A stretch of 64,000 nt of DNA. Origin: Bacteroidia bacterium. GTDB taxonomy: Bacteria; Bacteroidota; Bacteroidia; B-17B0; Aurantibacillaceae. Each line of letters begins with the position of its first letter. Within the stretch, counting starts at the first letter, position 1. This document shows positions 12,168-54,235 of the stretch, one piece after another. Both the position numbers and the translations under genes were made by a program. The notes under the pieces were generated by a model. The model was given only the letters and a program-made list of their open reading frames with translations, did no database searches and was not told the origin of the DNA. Location of the stretch: positions 1 to 64,000 of the forward strand of contig JAIOZA010000003.1 of assembly GCA_021740825.1 (NCBI GenBank), read 5' to 3'.

Positions 12168-12238
12168 TGTCACTTCGAGCGCAGTCGAGAAGCATTTTTC
12201 TAACTTCACTCTAGTTCTCGACTACGCTTGAACTGACA
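12168..12238. repeat. Hairpin repeat, copy 1 (TTCGAGCGCAGTCGAGAA family)
   Basis: Two 24-base arms at 12168-12191 and 12215-12238 are inverted copies with only three differences, joined by a 23-base loop. The arm reads TGTCA followed by a TTCGAGCGCAGTCGAGAA core. It is much more GC-rich than its surroundings and lies between convergent hemE and a GNAT gene. Other copies are at 42811-42872 and 55631-55681. It could act as a bidirectional terminator, but no T-run follows. Confidence 0.85.
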
Positions 12239-42502: not shown

Positions 42503-44656
42503 TTATATTTTCACTCCTATCACACACACATCATCCACCTGCTCTAAATCACCTTTCCAATTTTCAAAAACATTTTCGAGTTTTTGTTTTTGTATTTCCA
42601 TTGATTCATGAGAAATAGAAATTAATAAATTTTCTAATTGTTTGTACATAAATTTTTTGCCTTTTGGTCCTCCAAATTGATCGGCAAAGCCATCGGTAAA
42701 TAAATAAAATTGCATGCCATCTTGTAATGCAATTTCATGTGCAGTAAATGGTTTAGTTATTTCGCTTTTGCCAATTGGTTGTTTGTCAGCTTTGATTTCG
42801 ATGAGTTGAATGTCAGGTCGAGCGGAGTCGAGACCTGCATATGTCGACTTCTCGACTGCGCTCGAAGTGACAGAAGATTTTACATACCACAACGGATTGT
42901 TGGCGCCACTCCAATAAACTTTATTATTTGACTTATCAATACACAACAACGAAATATCCATGCCGTCTTTTACTTCGGAGTTTCCTTTGGCAAAGGTTTC
43001 TAAAACGAGTTCGCGAGTTTTATCTAAAATTTTTCCCGTATCAGTAATGCCAAATTCGTTTACGGTTCTGTTTAAGGCATTAGAGCAAACAACAGAAACC
43101 ATTGCGCCAGGAACACCATGTCCGGTGGAATCGGCAGCGGCAATAAAAAATTTATCATCTTTAATTTCAGCCCAATAAAAATCTCCAGCAACTACATCTT
43201 TAGGTTGATATAAAACAAAGTTATTTGGAACATGTTCATTGATGAAATGTAATGGTGGTAAAATAGCTTCTTGTAAACGTTTAGCGTAATGAATGGAATC
43301 GAGGATTTCTTTTTGTTTTTCTTTTATTAAATGGTTTTGTAAATCAACTACTGCTTTTTGTTTTTCAACTTCTGTTTTCTGTAAGGCAATAATTTTATTT
43401 GCTTTTTTAGTTTTTCTTAAATTAATAAAGACAAAAAACAAAAAAACAACTAGCATGAACAAACCACTTAGAATCATTTTCTGAATGTATTCTTGTTGCT
43501 TTCTATTCTCTTCGCTTAAAGTCTTCTCAATCTCTAATCCTTTAATTTTTTTTTGTTTAAGTTCTGCTTCAATATTTTTTTGTGCTATTTCATTTTCTTT
43601 ATTTTTTAAGGATAATTCATTAATTATTTTTAACTGATTAAGTTGTTCTATTTCTTTTCTTTTTTGATTAGCGATTAATTGACTTTTAATAATTTCAGCC
43701 TCTTTTGACTTTATAATTAATGCAGAAACAGCCTTATCTTTAGCTAATAAATCCAGCTCTAGTTGCTTTTGTTTTGTTACTATTTCTTGACGCTTTAATT
43801 CTTCTTTTTTCTCCTTCATTTCACTTTCAAAAATCACTTGCGCGTTTTTTAAATGAATCATTTCATTTATAATTTCTTTACTTCTATTTTCAATTCTTTT
43901 TGAGACGTTCTTGATTAGCTGTGTCTTTTCTGATTCATTTAGTTTTTTATATTTCTCTATAGTCTCTGGATCTGTTAATTCTAAATTAGCTTCAAGATTT
44001 GAATCGTAGGAAAGTACAAATTCGGGTTTATCATACAGTAATGGCGCCAAAAAATAAATATCGTTATTTTTGAAGGTCTGTAATGAAATTGATTTAATTA
44101 ATGGTAAATCGAAAAGCAAATTCTCGTCAGGGAAAGAAATAGATTTATTAATATCTATATTATCTGCTTTAACTAATATTTTTATTGGAAGATACCCTAA
44201 AACAAAAAACTCTACTTCGTAATTTTTGCCTACATCAAGAATAATTACATATTTATTTTTTAATGTGCTTAATCTTGTTATTTCCTTTTTAGTATCAAGA
44301 TCCAATATTTTTATCAACAAAAAATCAATTTCGTTTTCAGGATTTAATTCGTCATGAATAGCCCCATCTAAAATAATGCATCCCTTTTTTATTGTATCTG
44401 AATTAATTTCAAAATTATAAGTTATTTTTCCATCTTTATTATAAAAAATCTGTTTGTATTTGATGTTTTTTTTATAAAACACTTCCTCTGAAACATGTTT
44501 CCCATCATCAAAGTATTTTTTTAAAAAACCTTCTCTATCACCATTTGAATTAATATATATTGAATTGTTTTGAGACTTAACTGAAATTTTAAAGACTATT
44601 AATAATAGAAGTATAGTAAATTTGATAATACGTATATTATTAGCAGTATAAATCAT
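42503..44656 (-). CDS. SpoIIE/PP2C-type phosphatase with periplasmic sensor and coiled coils
   Basis: 717 residues. A signal/anchor helix (about 10-26) is followed by a likely periplasmic region (30-240), a long Lys/Glu/Gln coiled coil (about 250-390), a membrane helix (about 396-416), a second short coiled coil and a SpoIIE domain (about 480-717). Phosphatase motifs are DVVAGDFYWAE, AADSTGHGVPGAMVS, KDGMDISLLC, SGANNPLWYVK and DDVCVIGVKI. It probably dephosphorylates an anti-sigma-antagonist-like protein. Residues 595-616 are encoded by a genomic hairpin repeat (42811-42872) and lie in a loop after the PLWYVK strand. Confidence 0.88.
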   Translation of the reverse strand: MIYTANNIRIIKFTILLLLIVFKISVKSQNNSIYINSNGDREGFLKKYFDDGKHVSEEVFYKKNIKYKQIFYNKDGKITYNFEINSDTIKKGCIILDGAIHDELNPENEIDFLLIKILDLDTKKEITRLSTLKNKYVIILDVGKNYEVEFFVLGYLPIKILVKADNIDINKSISFPDENLLFDLPLIKSISLQTFKNNDIYFLAPLLYDKPEFVLSYDSNLEANLELTDPETIEKYKKLNESEKTQLIKNVSKRIENRSKEIINEMIHLKNAQVIFESEMKEKKEELKRQEIVTKQKQLELDLLAKDKAVSALIIKSKEAEIIKSQLIANQKRKEIEQLNQLKIINELSLKNKENEIAQKNIEAELKQKKIKGLEIEKTLSEENRKQQEYIQKMILSGLFMLVVFLFFVFINLRKTKKANKIIALQKTEVEKQKAVVDLQNHLIKEKQKEILDSIHYAKRLQEAILPPLHFINEHVPNNFVLYQPKDVVAGDFYWAEIKDDKFFIAAADSTGHGVPGAMVSVVCSNALNRTVNEFGITDTGKILDKTRELVLETFAKGNSEVKDGMDISLLCIDKSNNKVYWSGANNPLWYVKSSVTSSAVEKSTYAGLDSARPDIQLIEIKADKQPIGKSEITKPFTAHEIALQDGMQFYLFTDGFADQFGGPKGKKFMYKQLENLLISISHESMEIQKQKLENVFENWKGDLEQVDDVCVIGVKI
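42811..42872. repeat. Hairpin repeat, copy 2, inside the SpoIIE phosphatase gene
   Basis: Arms TGTCAGGTCGAGCGGAGTCGAG (from 42811) and TTCTCGACTGCGCTCGAA (from 42849) are inverted relatives of the repeat at 12168. The unit is about 62-63 bases, compatible with 21 codons, and keeps the host gene in frame. Confidence 0.85.
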
Positions 44657-48132: not shown

Positions 48133-48489
48133 CTATTCTTTTTTTAAAGATGATTCTTGTTTATTAAATAGTAATTGGTAATAAAAAATTCCTACAAAAA
48201 TAAATCCTAATCCAAAAGGAATCGAGGCTAATAATTTATATGCACCGTTACTAAAAAACTCACTGTACATCCAAAAGCTATTTGCACAAATCCAAAATAA
48301 AATGGCCAGATTTAAAAATAAATCGGTTGTTTTGCGAGTAATGTAAATGATATAGGCGGCAATGCTTAAGGTAGGAATAATCATTAATACGCCCAATAAT
48401 TTAGCTTCAAACATCCAGCAACTGTCTTTTATTAGCCAAAAAACAATGTGAAGGCTTTCATACTTTTTTATCTTTTCCCAAAGTTCCAT
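48133..48489 (-). CDS. Small four-helix membrane protein of unknown function
   Basis: 118 residues with four hydrophobic helices (about 14-24, 31-48, 57-75 and 84-104) and a charged tail KQESSLKKE. The motif LIKDSCWMFEAKLLG and LFWICANSFWMYSEF are aromatic-rich and repeat the W-M pattern. No family is recognised; similar small proteins are found in other Bacteroidota. It lies 78 bases upstream of icmF on the same strand. Confidence 0.7.
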   Translation of the reverse strand: MELWEKIKKYESLHIVFWLIKDSCWMFEAKLLGVLMIIPTLSIAAYIIYITRKTTDLFLNLAILFWICANSFWMYSEFFSNGAYKLLASIPFGLGFIFVGIFYYQLLFNKQESSLKKE

Positions 48490-48517
48490 AATTCAGCATT
48501 AAAAGTAATATTTTTTT

Positions 48518-48656
48518 AACCACATAGGTCATAGGTTTTCATTGATTTATATAGAGGATTAAAATAATTTCTCTTTTACACAGTTTAACTATGTACAAAA
48601 ACATGTTTTCTATCATGGAAATTCTAACAAATAGTATTCTATGTCTCTATGTGGTT
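48518..48656. repeat. Gene-free inverted-repeat element (AACCACATAG ends)
   Basis: AACCACATAGGTCATAG at 48518-48534 is matched inversely by CTATGTCTCTATGTGGTT at 48639-48656, with a single small difference. The roughly 140 bases between hold no gene. It lies in the divergent gap between the membrane protein and the M16 peptidase genes. It resembles a miniature element. Confidence 0.7.
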
Positions 48657-48727
48657 ATTTTTCCATAACTCTTTATGTATTTAAGCCTTTTTAGTATCTT
48701 TAAAGATAATTTACTTCAAAAAAATAT

Positions 48728-49966
48728 ATGATCGAGTTTCAAAAATTTAAACTTAAAAATAATTTAACAGTTATAGTTCATCAAGATAAAAGTACGCCGA
48801 TGGCTTGCTTAAATATTATTTATGATGTTGGCGCGAGAGATGAAGATGAAAATAAAACAGGTTTTGCACATCTATTTGAGCATTTAATGTTTGGAGGCAG
48901 TGTTAATATTCCTAATTATGACGAGCCTTTGCAATTGGTTGGCGGTGAAAATAATGCATTTACCACAAACGATATTACAAACTACTATTGCACAGTTCCA
49001 TCCGAAAATTTAGAAACGGCTTTTTGGTTAGAGAGCGACCGTTTGTTGAGTTTGGCTTTTGATAAAAAAAGTTTAGAAGTACAACGCAGCGTAGTAATTG
49101 AAGAGTTTAAACAACGCTATTTAAATCAACCATACGGCGACGTTTGGTTATTATTACGTCCAATGATTTACAGAGTGCATCCATACAAATGGGCAACTAT
49201 TGGTAAAGAAATAAAACATATTGAAGACGCTACCATGGAAGATGTGAAAGCATTTTTTAAAGAACATTATACGCCGAGTAATGCCGTATTAGTTGTAGCT
49301 GGCGATGTTGAATTTGAGCAAGTAAAACAATTAGCAGAAAAATGGTTTGAACCAATTGAAGCAGGCACTAAACCAAAACGTAATTTACCTGTTGAGCCGC
49401 CACAAACAGAATACAGAAGTTTAACTGTTGAACGTGATGTGCCAATTAGCAGCATTTACAGAGCATATCGCATGTGTGCCAGAGTTGATGCAGAATACCA
49501 TACCATTGATTTAATGTCGGATATTTTATCAAGAGGAAACTCTTCTCGTTTGTATAAAAACTTAATTAAAGACAAACAATTATTTTCAGACATCAATGCT
49601 TATGTGATGGGGGATTTTGATAAAGGACTATTTGTGATTTCAGGTAAAATAAATGAGGGGGTTACCATTGAGCAAGCTGAAGCTGGTATAGATGCTGAAA
49701 TTGCAAAACTACAAAACGAATTAGTTGCTGCTGATGAGTTACAAAAATGTAAAAATAAAGTTGAATCTACTGTAACTTATAGTGAAGCAGATGTGCTAAA
49801 TAAAGCAACAAACTTAGCTATTTCGGAATTGTTAGGCGATGCCAATTTGATTAATTTAGAAATTGAAAATTACCAAAATGTAACCGCTGAACAAATTAAA
49901 GAACAAGCCAATATCATTTTACGAAAAACAAATTGTAGCACGTTGTTTTATTTAAAAAAGAAGTAG
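48728..49966 (+). CDS. M16-family zinc metallopeptidase
   Basis: 412 residues. The inverted zinc motif HLFEH (HxxEH) is in GFAHLFEHLMFGGS near residues 44-57, and the third ligand Glu lies in LEVQRSVVIEEFKQRY near 115-130. The later half is the inactive-type M16 domain with the RGNSSRLYKNL pattern. There is no signal peptide, so it should be cytoplasmic. The physiological substrate is unknown. It is followed after 5 bases by the inverted-repeat element holding the GxxExxY gene. Confidence 0.93.
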   Translation: MIEFQKFKLKNNLTVIVHQDKSTPMACLNIIYDVGARDEDENKTGFAHLFEHLMFGGSVNIPNYDEPLQLVGGENNAFTTNDITNYYCTVPSENLETAFWLESDRLLSLAFDKKSLEVQRSVVIEEFKQRYLNQPYGDVWLLLRPMIYRVHPYKWATIGKEIKHIEDATMEDVKAFFKEHYTPSNAVLVVAGDVEFEQVKQLAEKWFEPIEAGTKPKRNLPVEPPQTEYRSLTVERDVPISSIYRAYRMCARVDAEYHTIDLMSDILSRGNSSRLYKNLIKDKQLFSDINAYVMGDFDKGLFVISGKINEGVTIEQAEAGIDAEIAKLQNELVAADELQKCKNKVESTVTYSEADVLNKATNLAISELLGDANLINLEIENYQNVTAEQIKEQANIILRKTNCSTLFYLKKK

Positions 49967-49970
49967 GTCG

Positions 49971-50420
49971 GGTTCCCGCAGATTTCGCAGATGACACAGA
50001 TAGAAAAAATAGTAGAAAATGATTTATCCTATATAATTAGAGGATGTGTTTTTGATGTTTATAATGAACTTGGTCCTGGTTTGTTAGAATCTATTTACGA
50101 AGCTGCTTTAGCTTATGAATTAAGGGAAAAGGGCTTAAACGTTAAAACACAATTGGGATTGCCTGTTAGATATAAAGACACGCAACTAGATCTTGGTTAT
50201 AGAATAGATATACTAGTAGAAGACAAAGTGATTATCGAATTAAAATCTATTGAAACAATTTTAGATGTTCATCATAAACAAGTACTAACCTATTTAAAAC
50301 TTACAAAACTTAAATTGGGGTTATTGATTAACTTTAATAGTGATGATATATCAAAATCAATTTATAGAAAAGTAAATAATTTATAAAAAATCTGCAGAAA
50401 TCTGTGAGATCTGCGGGACA
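49971..50420. mobile_element. Candidate GxxExxY element with inverted-repeat ends
   Basis: The left end 49974-49983 (TCCCGCAGAT) is exactly inverted at 50409-50418 (ATCTGCGGGA). Both ends continue inward with imperfect CGCAGAT/ACAGAT units. The GxxExxY gene fills the whole interior and its start codon is inside the left repeat. No target-site duplication could be established by eye. Confidence 0.6.
49991..50386 (+). CDS. GxxExxY protein (PDDEXK-like fold)
   Basis: 131 residues. The family motif appears as GPGLLESIYEAAL (G-x-x-E-x-x-Y) near residues 29-41. Later YRIDILVEDKVIIELKS provides the Asp and Glu-x-Lys of a PD-(D/E)xK nuclease-like core. The family (TIGR04256, PF13366) is common in Bacteroidota and has no proven function. 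The ATG lies inside the left inverted repeat, so the first residues (MTQIE) are encoded by the repeat; the stop is 4 bases before the right repeat. This arrangement suggests a self-contained element. Confidence 0.88.
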   Translation: MTQIEKIVENDLSYIIRGCVFDVYNELGPGLLESIYEAALAYELREKGLNVKTQLGLPVRYKDTQLDLGYRIDILVEDKVIIELKSIETILDVHHKQVLTYLKLTKLKLGLLINFNSDDISKSIYRKVNNL

Positions 50421-50426
50421 TTAATT

Positions 50427-51380
50427 ATGAATATAACTGAAATATCAAATCGTTTAACTCAACTTCAGTTTAACTCTGATGTGATTAACTCGTATTATGA
50501 ACCACATAGATATTATCATACATTAGAACATATTATTGATGTGTTAAAAGAATTACGAAATAGTGATTTATTAAAACATGATGAGCTGTTTTTAACAGCC
50601 GTATTTCATGATATTGTTTACAATGCTCAATCAAGTTCCAACGAAGAGGATTCAGCGGAATTTTTTATAAATGCAGCAAAAACATCTTCTTTAACTCAGG
50701 AACAAAAAGAACATATTAAACAATTAATTTTAGACACAAAACATCATAAACCTACCGTTCCATTTTCTGAAGAATTTATAAAAGCTGATTTAGCCATTTT
50801 AAATTCTTCCTTTGATAAATTAATTAAATATGAGAAACAAATTTTTAAAGAATTTCAATTTGTAGATTATAAAGACTATAAAACAAAACGCATTGAAGTT
50901 TTAAAGCAATTTAATACTAATGGAAATTTAAATAATTTAATTGATTATGTTAACTCGGTTGAGCCAAGTATAGGCGTATTTGCAGGTAGTTTTAATCCTT
51001 TTCATAAAGGGCATTACAACGTATTAGAGAAAGCGGAAAAATTGTTTGATAAAGTAATTATTGCATTTGGAAAAAATCCTGATAAAACAATACGCTCATG
51101 GCCAATTCCTAAAACTATTGCAAACAGACAGCAAACAGAATATCACGATTTGTTAACTGACCATATAGATTCGTTTGACTACGATGTAACGGTGGTAAGA
51201 GGTTTAAGAAATTCTACGGATTTTAATTACGAACAAAATCAATACCGCTACATACAAGAATTAAAACCAGATATTAAAATCATCAATATTTTTTGCGATA
51301 AAGAATTTGAACATATTAGTTCATCTGGTATTCGCACGTTAGAGAAATACAACAAACACCACAGTTATTTGTTAGACTAA
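50427..51380 (+). CDS. HD-domain phosphohydrolase fused to CoaD-like adenylyltransferase
   Basis: 317 residues. Residues 1 to about 170 match the predicted metal-dependent HD family of COG4339: RYYHTLEHI (His31, His35), AVFHDIVY (His61-Asp62), DTKHHKP and KADLAIL. Residues 182-317 are a nucleotidyltransferase with GSFNPFHKGH (187-196), VVRGLRNSTDFNYE (256-269) and ISSSGIR (297-303), the three CoaD (phosphopantetheine adenylyltransferase) motifs. CoaD adenylates 4'-phosphopantetheine in CoA synthesis. Whether this is the only CoaD of the cell is unknown. The HD substrate is unknown. It begins just past the GxxExxY element. Confidence 0.85.
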   Translation: MNITEISNRLTQLQFNSDVINSYYEPHRYYHTLEHIIDVLKELRNSDLLKHDELFLTAVFHDIVYNAQSSSNEEDSAEFFINAAKTSSLTQEQKEHIKQLILDTKHHKPTVPFSEEFIKADLAILNSSFDKLIKYEKQIFKEFQFVDYKDYKTKRIEVLKQFNTNGNLNNLIDYVNSVEPSIGVFAGSFNPFHKGHYNVLEKAEKLFDKVIIAFGKNPDKTIRSWPIPKTIANRQQTEYHDLLTDHIDSFDYDVTVVRGLRNSTDFNYEQNQYRYIQELKPDIKIINIFCDKEFEHISSSGIRTLEKYNKHHSYLLD

Positions 51381-54193: not shown

Positions 54194-54199
54194 CTTTTA

Positions 54200-54235
54200 A
54201 GACCTATCAGGTTTTTAAACCTGATAGGTCTTTCC
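54200..54235 (+). terminator. Terminator after the subtilase gene
   Basis: AGACCTATCAGGTT and AACCTGATAGGTCT are perfect 14-base inverse copies around a 4-base loop, followed by T's. Similar CCTATCAGG hairpins recur between genes in related genomes as I recall, so it may also be a repeat. Confidence 0.8.

Follow-up and report, generated by a model that had tools for sequence, protein, structure and literature searches.

Among the closest described counterparts of the element reviewed here, in its way of life if not in its protein, are the REPIN/RAYT systems. In the available part of the published account, a small nuclease gene lies beside its own palindromic repeat, each nuclease is distinct and single-copy in its genome with its closest relatives in other genomes, and many gene-less inverted doublets of the repeat are found in intergenic space (PMC3116915). 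The nucleases (RAYTs) are thought, in the same text, to copy or maintain the REPINs in cis and in trans (PMC3116915), and the constituent REPs carry GTAG/CGTC tags according to the accessible portion of a further paper (PMC3733652). A second architecture for comparison is that of the 23S rRNA intervening sequences, for which the available sections of a study on Coxiella describe a unit of 428 nt with pairing ends and tandem heptamers before an S23p ORF, suspected of being a selfish element (PMC4990558).

The locus considered here lies in a stretch of 64,000 nt (contig C51:1-64000; hereafter the window, meaning the whole stretch of DNA that was analysed) from a Bacteroidia genome of 2.95 Mb in 58 contigs, and consists of a gene of the GxxExxY family enclosed by inverted arrays of a short word. 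It resembles REPIN/RAYT in that gene-less inverted doublets of the gene's flanking repeat are dispersed in the genome and in that the putative nuclease is distinct and single-copy per genome. It differs in that the GxxExxY protein belongs to the PD-(D/E)xK type (PF13366), whereas RAYTs are Y1/HUH transposases, and in that its arms are tandem words of 7-9 nt with the gene inside the repeat pair; neither of the REP tags, as given in the available text, was seen by eye in the window arms. The 23S rRNA intervening sequences, in contrast, carry an ORF for the four-helix bundle S23p, are located in rRNA, and are excised by RNase III, whereas the GxxExxY element has another ORF and another word spacing; Rfam searches of window positions 48300-51000 and of 20 of the 80 named loci gave no rRNA match. 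With insertion sequences and their miniature derivatives (MITEs) the element shares a gene-bearing copy with terminal inverted repeats and, for one type (word TACGAAT), shorter gene-less copies with the same ends; however, it has no known transposase domain and no consistent target duplication, and its gene-bearing copies are single per type. Cas4, RecB, and lambda exonuclease are similar to the GxxExxY protein in predicted fold and in the D, ExK, and QxxxY core, but the latter has only about 130 residues, shows no cysteines among its listed conserved columns, and is free-standing within repeats. In the accessible text of the papers found, the name GxxExxY occurs as annotation only. The literature search, the scope of which left out subscription journals, preprints, and curators' family notes, found no account of the repeat context or function of GxxExxY genes or of the six words.

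Organization of the element

The whole element (left arm, GxxExxY gene, and right arm) occupies positions 49974..50418 of the plus strand, a length of 445 nt delimited from the sequence, the inverted pair, and the comparison of the same gap in related genomes. It starts behind the stop codon of an M16 peptidase (insulinase) gene (48728..49966, plus strand) and is followed by a gene with a cytidylyltransferase-like domain (50427..51380, plus strand) that forms the other edge of the compared gap, both neighbors being defined by ORF, gap comparison, and domain search. The left arm (TCCCGCAGATTTCGCAGATGACACAGAT; 49974..50001, plus strand) opens with TCC and continues with the words CGCAGAT (49977-49983), CGCAGAT (49986-49992), and CACAGAT (49995-50001) at 9-nt spacing; it was recognized from the sequence, its period of 9, and the enrichment of the word over a reversed control. 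The right arm (50390..50418, minus strand), recognized from the sequence and its alignment with the left arm, reads CGCAGAT (50409-50415), CACAGAT (50400-50406), and TGCAGAT (50390-50396) on the minus strand and ends in GGGA. TCCCGCAGAT at 49974-49983 and ATCTGCGGGA at 50409-50418 are exact reverse complements, and the aligned inverted pair extends over 49974-49992 and 50400-50418. Between and partly within these arms lies the gene itself (49991..50386, plus strand; 131 aa), identified by profiles, its conserved nuclease core, and purifying selection. Its ATG (49991-49993) starts within the second left word, and the first right word starts 3 nt after the stop codon (50384-50386), at 50390. The initial annotation had placed the gene inside its own inverted ends with the start codon in the left one, as is confirmed here; it had also described a unit of 450 bases with the stop codon 4 bases from the right end, a layout that holds with the sizes corrected to 445 nt and 3 nt. 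In the downstream gene, the first 125 residues are matched in only 8 of 19 genomes, the match starting at residue 126 or 127 in the other 11.

In an AT-rich genome, inverted pairs of such length are not rare in themselves. The 64-kb window holds 22 inverted pairs scoring at least 14 within 700 nt, the element's own pair scoring 15, and two AT-rich pairs in the window are equally periodic. The tandem word is the distinctive part, and it is the comparative data that carry the argument. Throughout the genome of 2.95 Mb, CGCAGATNNCGCAGAT is present in 3+3 copies and its reversed control is absent; the single word CGCAGAT occurs 85+87 times against 51+42 for the control. All five GxxExxY genes of the source genome that exceed the family cut-off sit, as judged by eye, between inverted word ends, the words being CGCAGAT, CGCAAAG/CGCAGAG, CACATAG (in two variants), and TACGAAT. 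Their automatic arm scores are 12 (L007), 15 (L008, the window copy), 16 (L009), 18 (L010), and 26 (L011), so that two of the five fall below the threshold of 16 used in the surveys described below. A gene-less element of about 139 nt with another word (AACCACATAG..CATAG / CTATGTCTCTATGTGGTT; inverse also CTATGTGGTT) was noted by eye in the sequence at 48518..48656, without assigned strand, in the gap upstream of the M16 peptidase gene; words of this family are likewise found at the flanks of the GxxExxY genes L009 and L010 of the source genome and at scattered sites in congeners.

The GxxExxY protein

The window protein is a full member of its family, scoring 149.5 bits against TIGR04256 (cut-off 35) and 147.7 bits against PF13366 (cut-off 22). 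These were the only profiles matched at E <=0.001, and no known transposase, Y1 (HUH), or S23p domain was detected in that search. Six columns (G28, G30, E33, Y36, D73, and K85) are invariant in 57 sequences, and E83 (at least 90%), Q97, and Y101 are nearly so; the D, ExK, and QxxxY columns are what we take to be the core motif of Cas4/RecB-type nucleases. The window protein has E33, D73, E83, K85, Q97, and Y101 of the nuclease core. The predicted structure has a pLDDT of 92.9, and the solved folds ranked highest by Foldseek were Cas4 SSO0001 (4ic1) and lambda exonuclease, with an E value of 2.4e-3 at best and none at or below 1e-3. A sequence search of solved structures returned one hit of E 0.58, which was not trusted as a relative, and libraries of defence and phage profiles gave weak hits only, to Cas4, CRISPR-associated, or nuclease profiles. 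By its predicted fold and its D...ExK residues, the window protein is assigned to the PD-(D/E)xK superfamily as a putative nuclease.

The protein is under purifying selection. The dN/dS ratio is 0.039 between the window gene and its G012 orthologue and 0.037 between L011 and L138. Of 11 pairs examined, six had a dS of at least 0.69 and gave 0.037-0.056, three closer pairs gave 0.03-0.17, a near-identical pair gave 0.8 at dS 0.012, and one further pair is identical.

Association of inverted arms with GxxExxY genes

GxxExxY genes were found in 45 of 60 related genomes searched and also occur in records of many phyla. Arms were scored by alignment of the flank left of a gene with the reverse-complemented right flank, with a main threshold of at least 16. 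In related genomes, 69 of 94 GxxExxY loci reach this score, as compared with 5 of 70 control ORFs and 5.6% of 1223 mismatched flank pairs; at a score of at least 20, the figures are 45/94, 1/70, and 1.0%. The 94 loci comprise the five of the source genome, 29 returned by the 60-genome search, and 60 hand-picked from a listing, mostly in rank order, and are not a random draw, as hits that contained internal stops or lay close to contig edges were for the most part excluded, and some of the G043 copies as well; nor are they independent, the genes of L049 and L092 being identical. Across phyla, arms scoring at least 16 were found at 55 of 77 loci, vs 11 of 136 control ORFs taken from these loci and 9.4% of the 913 mismatched pairs. 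These loci, which remained of 80 named ones after three with short flanks were dropped, are labelled Bacteroidota, Acidobacteria, Planctomycetota, Chloroflexi, Cyanobacteria, Proteobacteria, archaea, and others, several being metagenome bins for which the phylum label may be wrong for the contig. They were collected with a profile built from 14 closer sequences, a wider profile having been too variable, and at least four loci, judged from their arms, are common to both sets (L022/L231, L081/L264, L125/L237, and L126/L289). In a Hymenobacter daecheongensis copy (L222), 52 of 52 arm bases match. About a quarter of the loci have no arms at a score of 16 (25/94 in related genomes and 22/77 across phyla).

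The word itself differs between protein lineages. CACAGAG, CACATAG, TACGAAT, and CATATAAG are among those seen, repeated with a period of 8-10 nt, and the word is usually not CGCAGAT. The expectation that GxxExxY genes elsewhere would always be flanked by CGCAGAT is thus borne out as regards the repeats, which are far commoner than at other genes, and not as regards the word, which holds for the window element while other protein lineages own other words. In Mantel tests across genera, arm similarity is correlated with protein identity (rho 0.497; 1990 pairs from 69 of the 94 loci), the highest values in 500 shuffles each being 0.178 for full and 0.327 for within-genome permutation. With coding bases excluded (66 of 94 loci), rho is 0.450 across genera (maxima 0.130 and 0.319, respectively, in 1000 shuffles each) and 0.413 across families (0.192 and 0.314, likewise in 1000 each). 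Expressed differently, 62% of 56 pairs from different families share an arm (score of at least 14) when their proteins are 60-80% identical, vs about 1% of 361 such cross-family pairs at 30-35% identity. Paralogues within a genome are distant, with a mean identity of 0.40 and only 1 of 103 pairs at 80% or more and 3 of 103 at 60% or more among the 94 loci. A word that changes in step with the protein suggests that the gene and its repeats form one tiny mobile unit, the nuclease of which would recognize its own word.

Gene-less copies and occupancy of gene gaps

Tandem words are scattered through the genomes, in many cases forming inverted pairs with no gene between them. Exact tandem words were found in 27 (CGCAGAT), 29 (TACGAAT), 15 (CATAWAAG), and 21 (CACATAG) of the 60 genomes, as against two hits in total for reversed-word controls over all four scans. 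Close TACGAAT pairs with starts 28-65 nt apart, examined by eye in G000, G003, G005, and G012 only, faced inwards in 19 of 19 cases. Six gene-less copies were read in the source genome (G000), and the five with listed surroundings sit in or at the edge of gene gaps; the four of the six that carry TACGAAT have ends in common with the copy of this word that bears the gene. Genomes with a known cognate gene more often have copies at a distance from it: 7 of 10 such genomes vs 5 of 50 others for one word (p 2e-4), 10/11 vs 10/49 for a second (p 2e-5), 7/7 vs 22/53 for TACGAAT (p 0.004), and 8/11 vs 17/49 for a fourth (p 0.025), these being hand counts with Fisher tests that ignore relatedness among congeners that are not independent. 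"Cognate" was judged by adjacency or from the arms of fetched loci, and unfetched GxxExxY genes count as non-cognate. The gene is not required for the repeats to persist, and a strict dependence is disfavored, because words also occur in genomes lacking a known cognate gene, as in the 22 of 53 just cited for TACGAAT and in G059, which has 10 TACGAAT hits and no GxxExxY match.

The gap occupied by the window element was compared in 19 genomes of the genus, the source genome included (G001 had no match there). The full element is present in G000, G005, and G012 and is absent or different in the other 16. The gene is decayed in G013, and mainly the gene tail and the right arm are found in G003, G015, and G011. 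A gene-less pair of the CGCAGAT word takes its place in G007 and G016, G007 having a second copy of the gap without the array, and a gene-less pair of the CGCAAAG word does so in G008, G017, and G019. No word array is found in G002, G004, G009, G010, G014, and G018. In G006 (locus L068) the gap holds a chimera with CGCAGAT words at the left end and CGCAAAG words at the right, resembling the product of recombination between two element types.

A second gap, that of the L011 element (G000:C42), was compared in 20 genomes. The full element is present in G000, G003, G005, and G012, whereas in G002, G004, and G019 the flanks adjoin each other, the two genes lying about 4 nt apart with no word between them. 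Only 8-28 nt separate the genes in G007, G008, G014, G015, and G018. The remaining genomes have other contents: TACGAAT copies in G011 and a half copy in G016, a CATATAAG half in G009, palindromes with 7-nt steps in G006, G013, and G017, 49 unassigned nt in G010, and, in G001, a 650-nt element with a DUF559 ORF (PF04480, E 1.3e-22). The four genomes with the full element belong to a clade with a support of 100 that also contains the empty G019; precise loss and a single gain could not be separated, the inner nodes of the tree having supports of 61 and 42. Absence in related genomes, which the initial annotation had proposed as a check, was thus observed at two gene gaps, and its view of a compact unit of a gene with its own repeats is supported by the gap comparison, the flank statistics, and the match of word and protein. 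Repeats without the gene, which it held would speak against such a unit if they showed no sign of movement, are indeed common, but many of them are inverted pairs of a single polarity, and presence or absence differs between relatives at the two gaps.

No consistent target-site duplication was found, matches of at least 5 nt without shift occurring in 4 of 70 cases vs about 0.8 expected from shuffled pairs. When contig C42 of G000 was compared with contig C53 of G005 in search of recent insertions, only about 47 kb could be chained, and most gaps were other indels; one CACATAG copy is present only in G005, with blurred edges.

Mechanism and alternative explanations

The association of arms with the gene, the separate word of each lineage, the gene-less copies, the presence or absence at two gaps, the purifying selection, and the conserved catalytic residues are observed. 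From them we infer that the GxxExxY protein may bind, cut, and move the DNA of its element. The explanation favored here, to which a probability of about 0.56 is given, is that the GxxExxY gene and its inverted word arms form an element of about 450 nt that operates as a REPIN/RAYT-like system built on an unrelated nuclease, with recognition of its own word and spread in cis and in trans. A PD-(D/E)xK protein of the Cas4/RecB/lambda exonuclease type would recognize its own word of 7-9 nt, repeated two to four times about one helical turn apart and facing inwards from both ends. The nuclease would nick or cut inverted pairs of the word, and this cutting would spread or maintain both the gene-bearing and the gene-less miniature copies, in cis and in trans; such copies would land in short gene gaps, in many cases just downstream of a stop codon, and would degenerate with time. 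Against this explanation count the lack of a consistent target duplication and of an evident joining chemistry in a nuclease alone, the loci without arms at a score of 16, the score of 15 of the window element itself, the words in genomes with no known cognate gene, the weak structural hit, and the near-identical pair with a dN/dS of 0.8. A cognate inverted word array around a GxxExxY gene points to a concrete function, namely word-specific DNA recognition. Were the explanation correct, the family would amount to a natural library of small nucleases that differ in specificity, a group of short repeats scattered through these genomes would be explained, and the REPIN/RAYT way of life would have arisen with a second, unrelated nuclease.

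Some of the same observations could be accommodated by autoregulation, with the arms serving as operators for the gene's own expression and the gene-less copies as a regulon or decoys, without a role in mobility. The position of the ATG within the arm of the window element and the match of word and protein would suit such a role, and purifying selection fits a function for the host. This reading is nevertheless considered unlikely, given arms that also lie behind the gene, gene-less copies that are inverted pairs in gene gaps and come and go between congeners, and conserved nuclease residues. The suggestion of homing in the initial annotation is a poor fit in its strict sense, because the unit occupies gene gaps and not a conserved target gene. 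In a looser, homing-like form, gene-less palindromes would be landing sites that the nuclease cuts and into which the gene is copied by recombination, and the ends common to gene-bearing and gene-less TACGAAT copies, as well as the gene-less copy of the window word at the window gap in two congeners (G007 and G016), are what such a process might leave. However, unlike the sites of homing endonucleases, the three empty second-gap sites with abutting flanks (G004, G019, and G002) are short gene gaps of about 4 nt without word or palindrome, and gene-bearing copies are single per type and not spread over landing sites (1 of 103 same-genome pairs at least 80% identical), which leaves this form improbable.

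The words might also be repeats of host or foreign origin that are moved by other means, with GxxExxY genes as passengers caught between copies and kept, for example, for defence. Words that persist without a known cognate gene and the weak Cas4-type profile hits agree with this, and the inverted arms around four-helix-bundle and DUF559 genes make a shared carrier conceivable. The word, however, tracks the protein phylogeny across genera beyond within-genome shuffles, and the arm grammars differ between the gene families (a period of 8-10 nt for GxxExxY, a period of 7 nt for four-helix genes, and a GC-rich, hairpin-like form for DUF559), so that little credence is given to a passenger role. 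Least probable is an RNA element, the arms of which would pair in the transcript and be processed as in the 23S rRNA intervening sequences. The likeness in size and architecture to such a sequence, with its S23 ORF and tandem heptamers (PMC4990558, in the sections available), speaks for it, but an RNA-stem reading is weakened by the arm mismatches, in which sense G.U pairs are not overrepresented: the 641 mismatches of 86 elements include 103 sense G.U and 149 sense A.C (p 0.0045), which leans the opposite way. Rfam searches, moreover, gave no match at gathering score in the 20 of 80 named loci, and only two matches, both far below gathering score, in window positions 48300-51000.

Other ORFs in palindromic elements

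The favored explanation for GxxExxY can be placed, tentatively and with more doubt than conviction, within a general class of bacterial and archaeal elements that have an ORF inside a palindrome. Such a class would comprise at least three unrelated families (GxxExxY, S23-type four-helix bundle, and DUF559), each with its own repeat grammar and with gene-less miniatures, using the same gaps; DUF559 would also insert into essential proteins without breaking their frame, and one branch would be formed by the enigmatic intervening sequences of 23S rRNA. Each GxxExxY nuclease would then read a DNA word of its own, and the family would provide a natural set of word-specific nucleases.

Genes of the TIGR02436 four-helix-bundle family, to which the S23p of rRNA intervening sequences presumably belongs, were surveyed in related genomes (L140-L169) and have inverted arms at 16 of 30 loci (score of at least 16). 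These arms are inverted arrays of 7-nt words at a strict 7-nt spacing, in an architecture like that of the 23S rRNA intervening sequences. DUF559 genes have inverted arms at 21 of 30 loci (score of at least 16) vs 11.2% of 436 mismatched pairs, and at 11 of 30 vs 8.0% at a score of 20, the mismatched-pair values being high because the arms share GC-rich hairpins. In five cases, picked from the 30 for their long frames, DUF559 lies in frame inside another protein with palindromic DNA ends: leucyl-tRNA synthetase in L319, L330, and L324 (twice in the last) and methionine synthase in L321 and L328. Elements resembling all three types occur at the second gap, with no four-helix gene found in the second-gap inserts tested. 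The 650-nt element of G001 (contig C27, L300) has inverted ends (..CCCCTCCATTGGAGGGGTGTCCGTAGGACGGGGTGGTT..) and sits in the gap where four congeners have the TACGAAT GxxExxY element.

Further palindromes were seen in the window. A hairpin repeat, TGTCANNTCGAGCGNAGTCGAGA with its inverse, is present in two copies (12168-12238 and 42811-42872) and represents a further palindrome family. Another palindrome, ACCTATCAGGTTT (54199-54232), recurs in a longer version at the element gap of G015 (locus L058), beside the remaining right arm.
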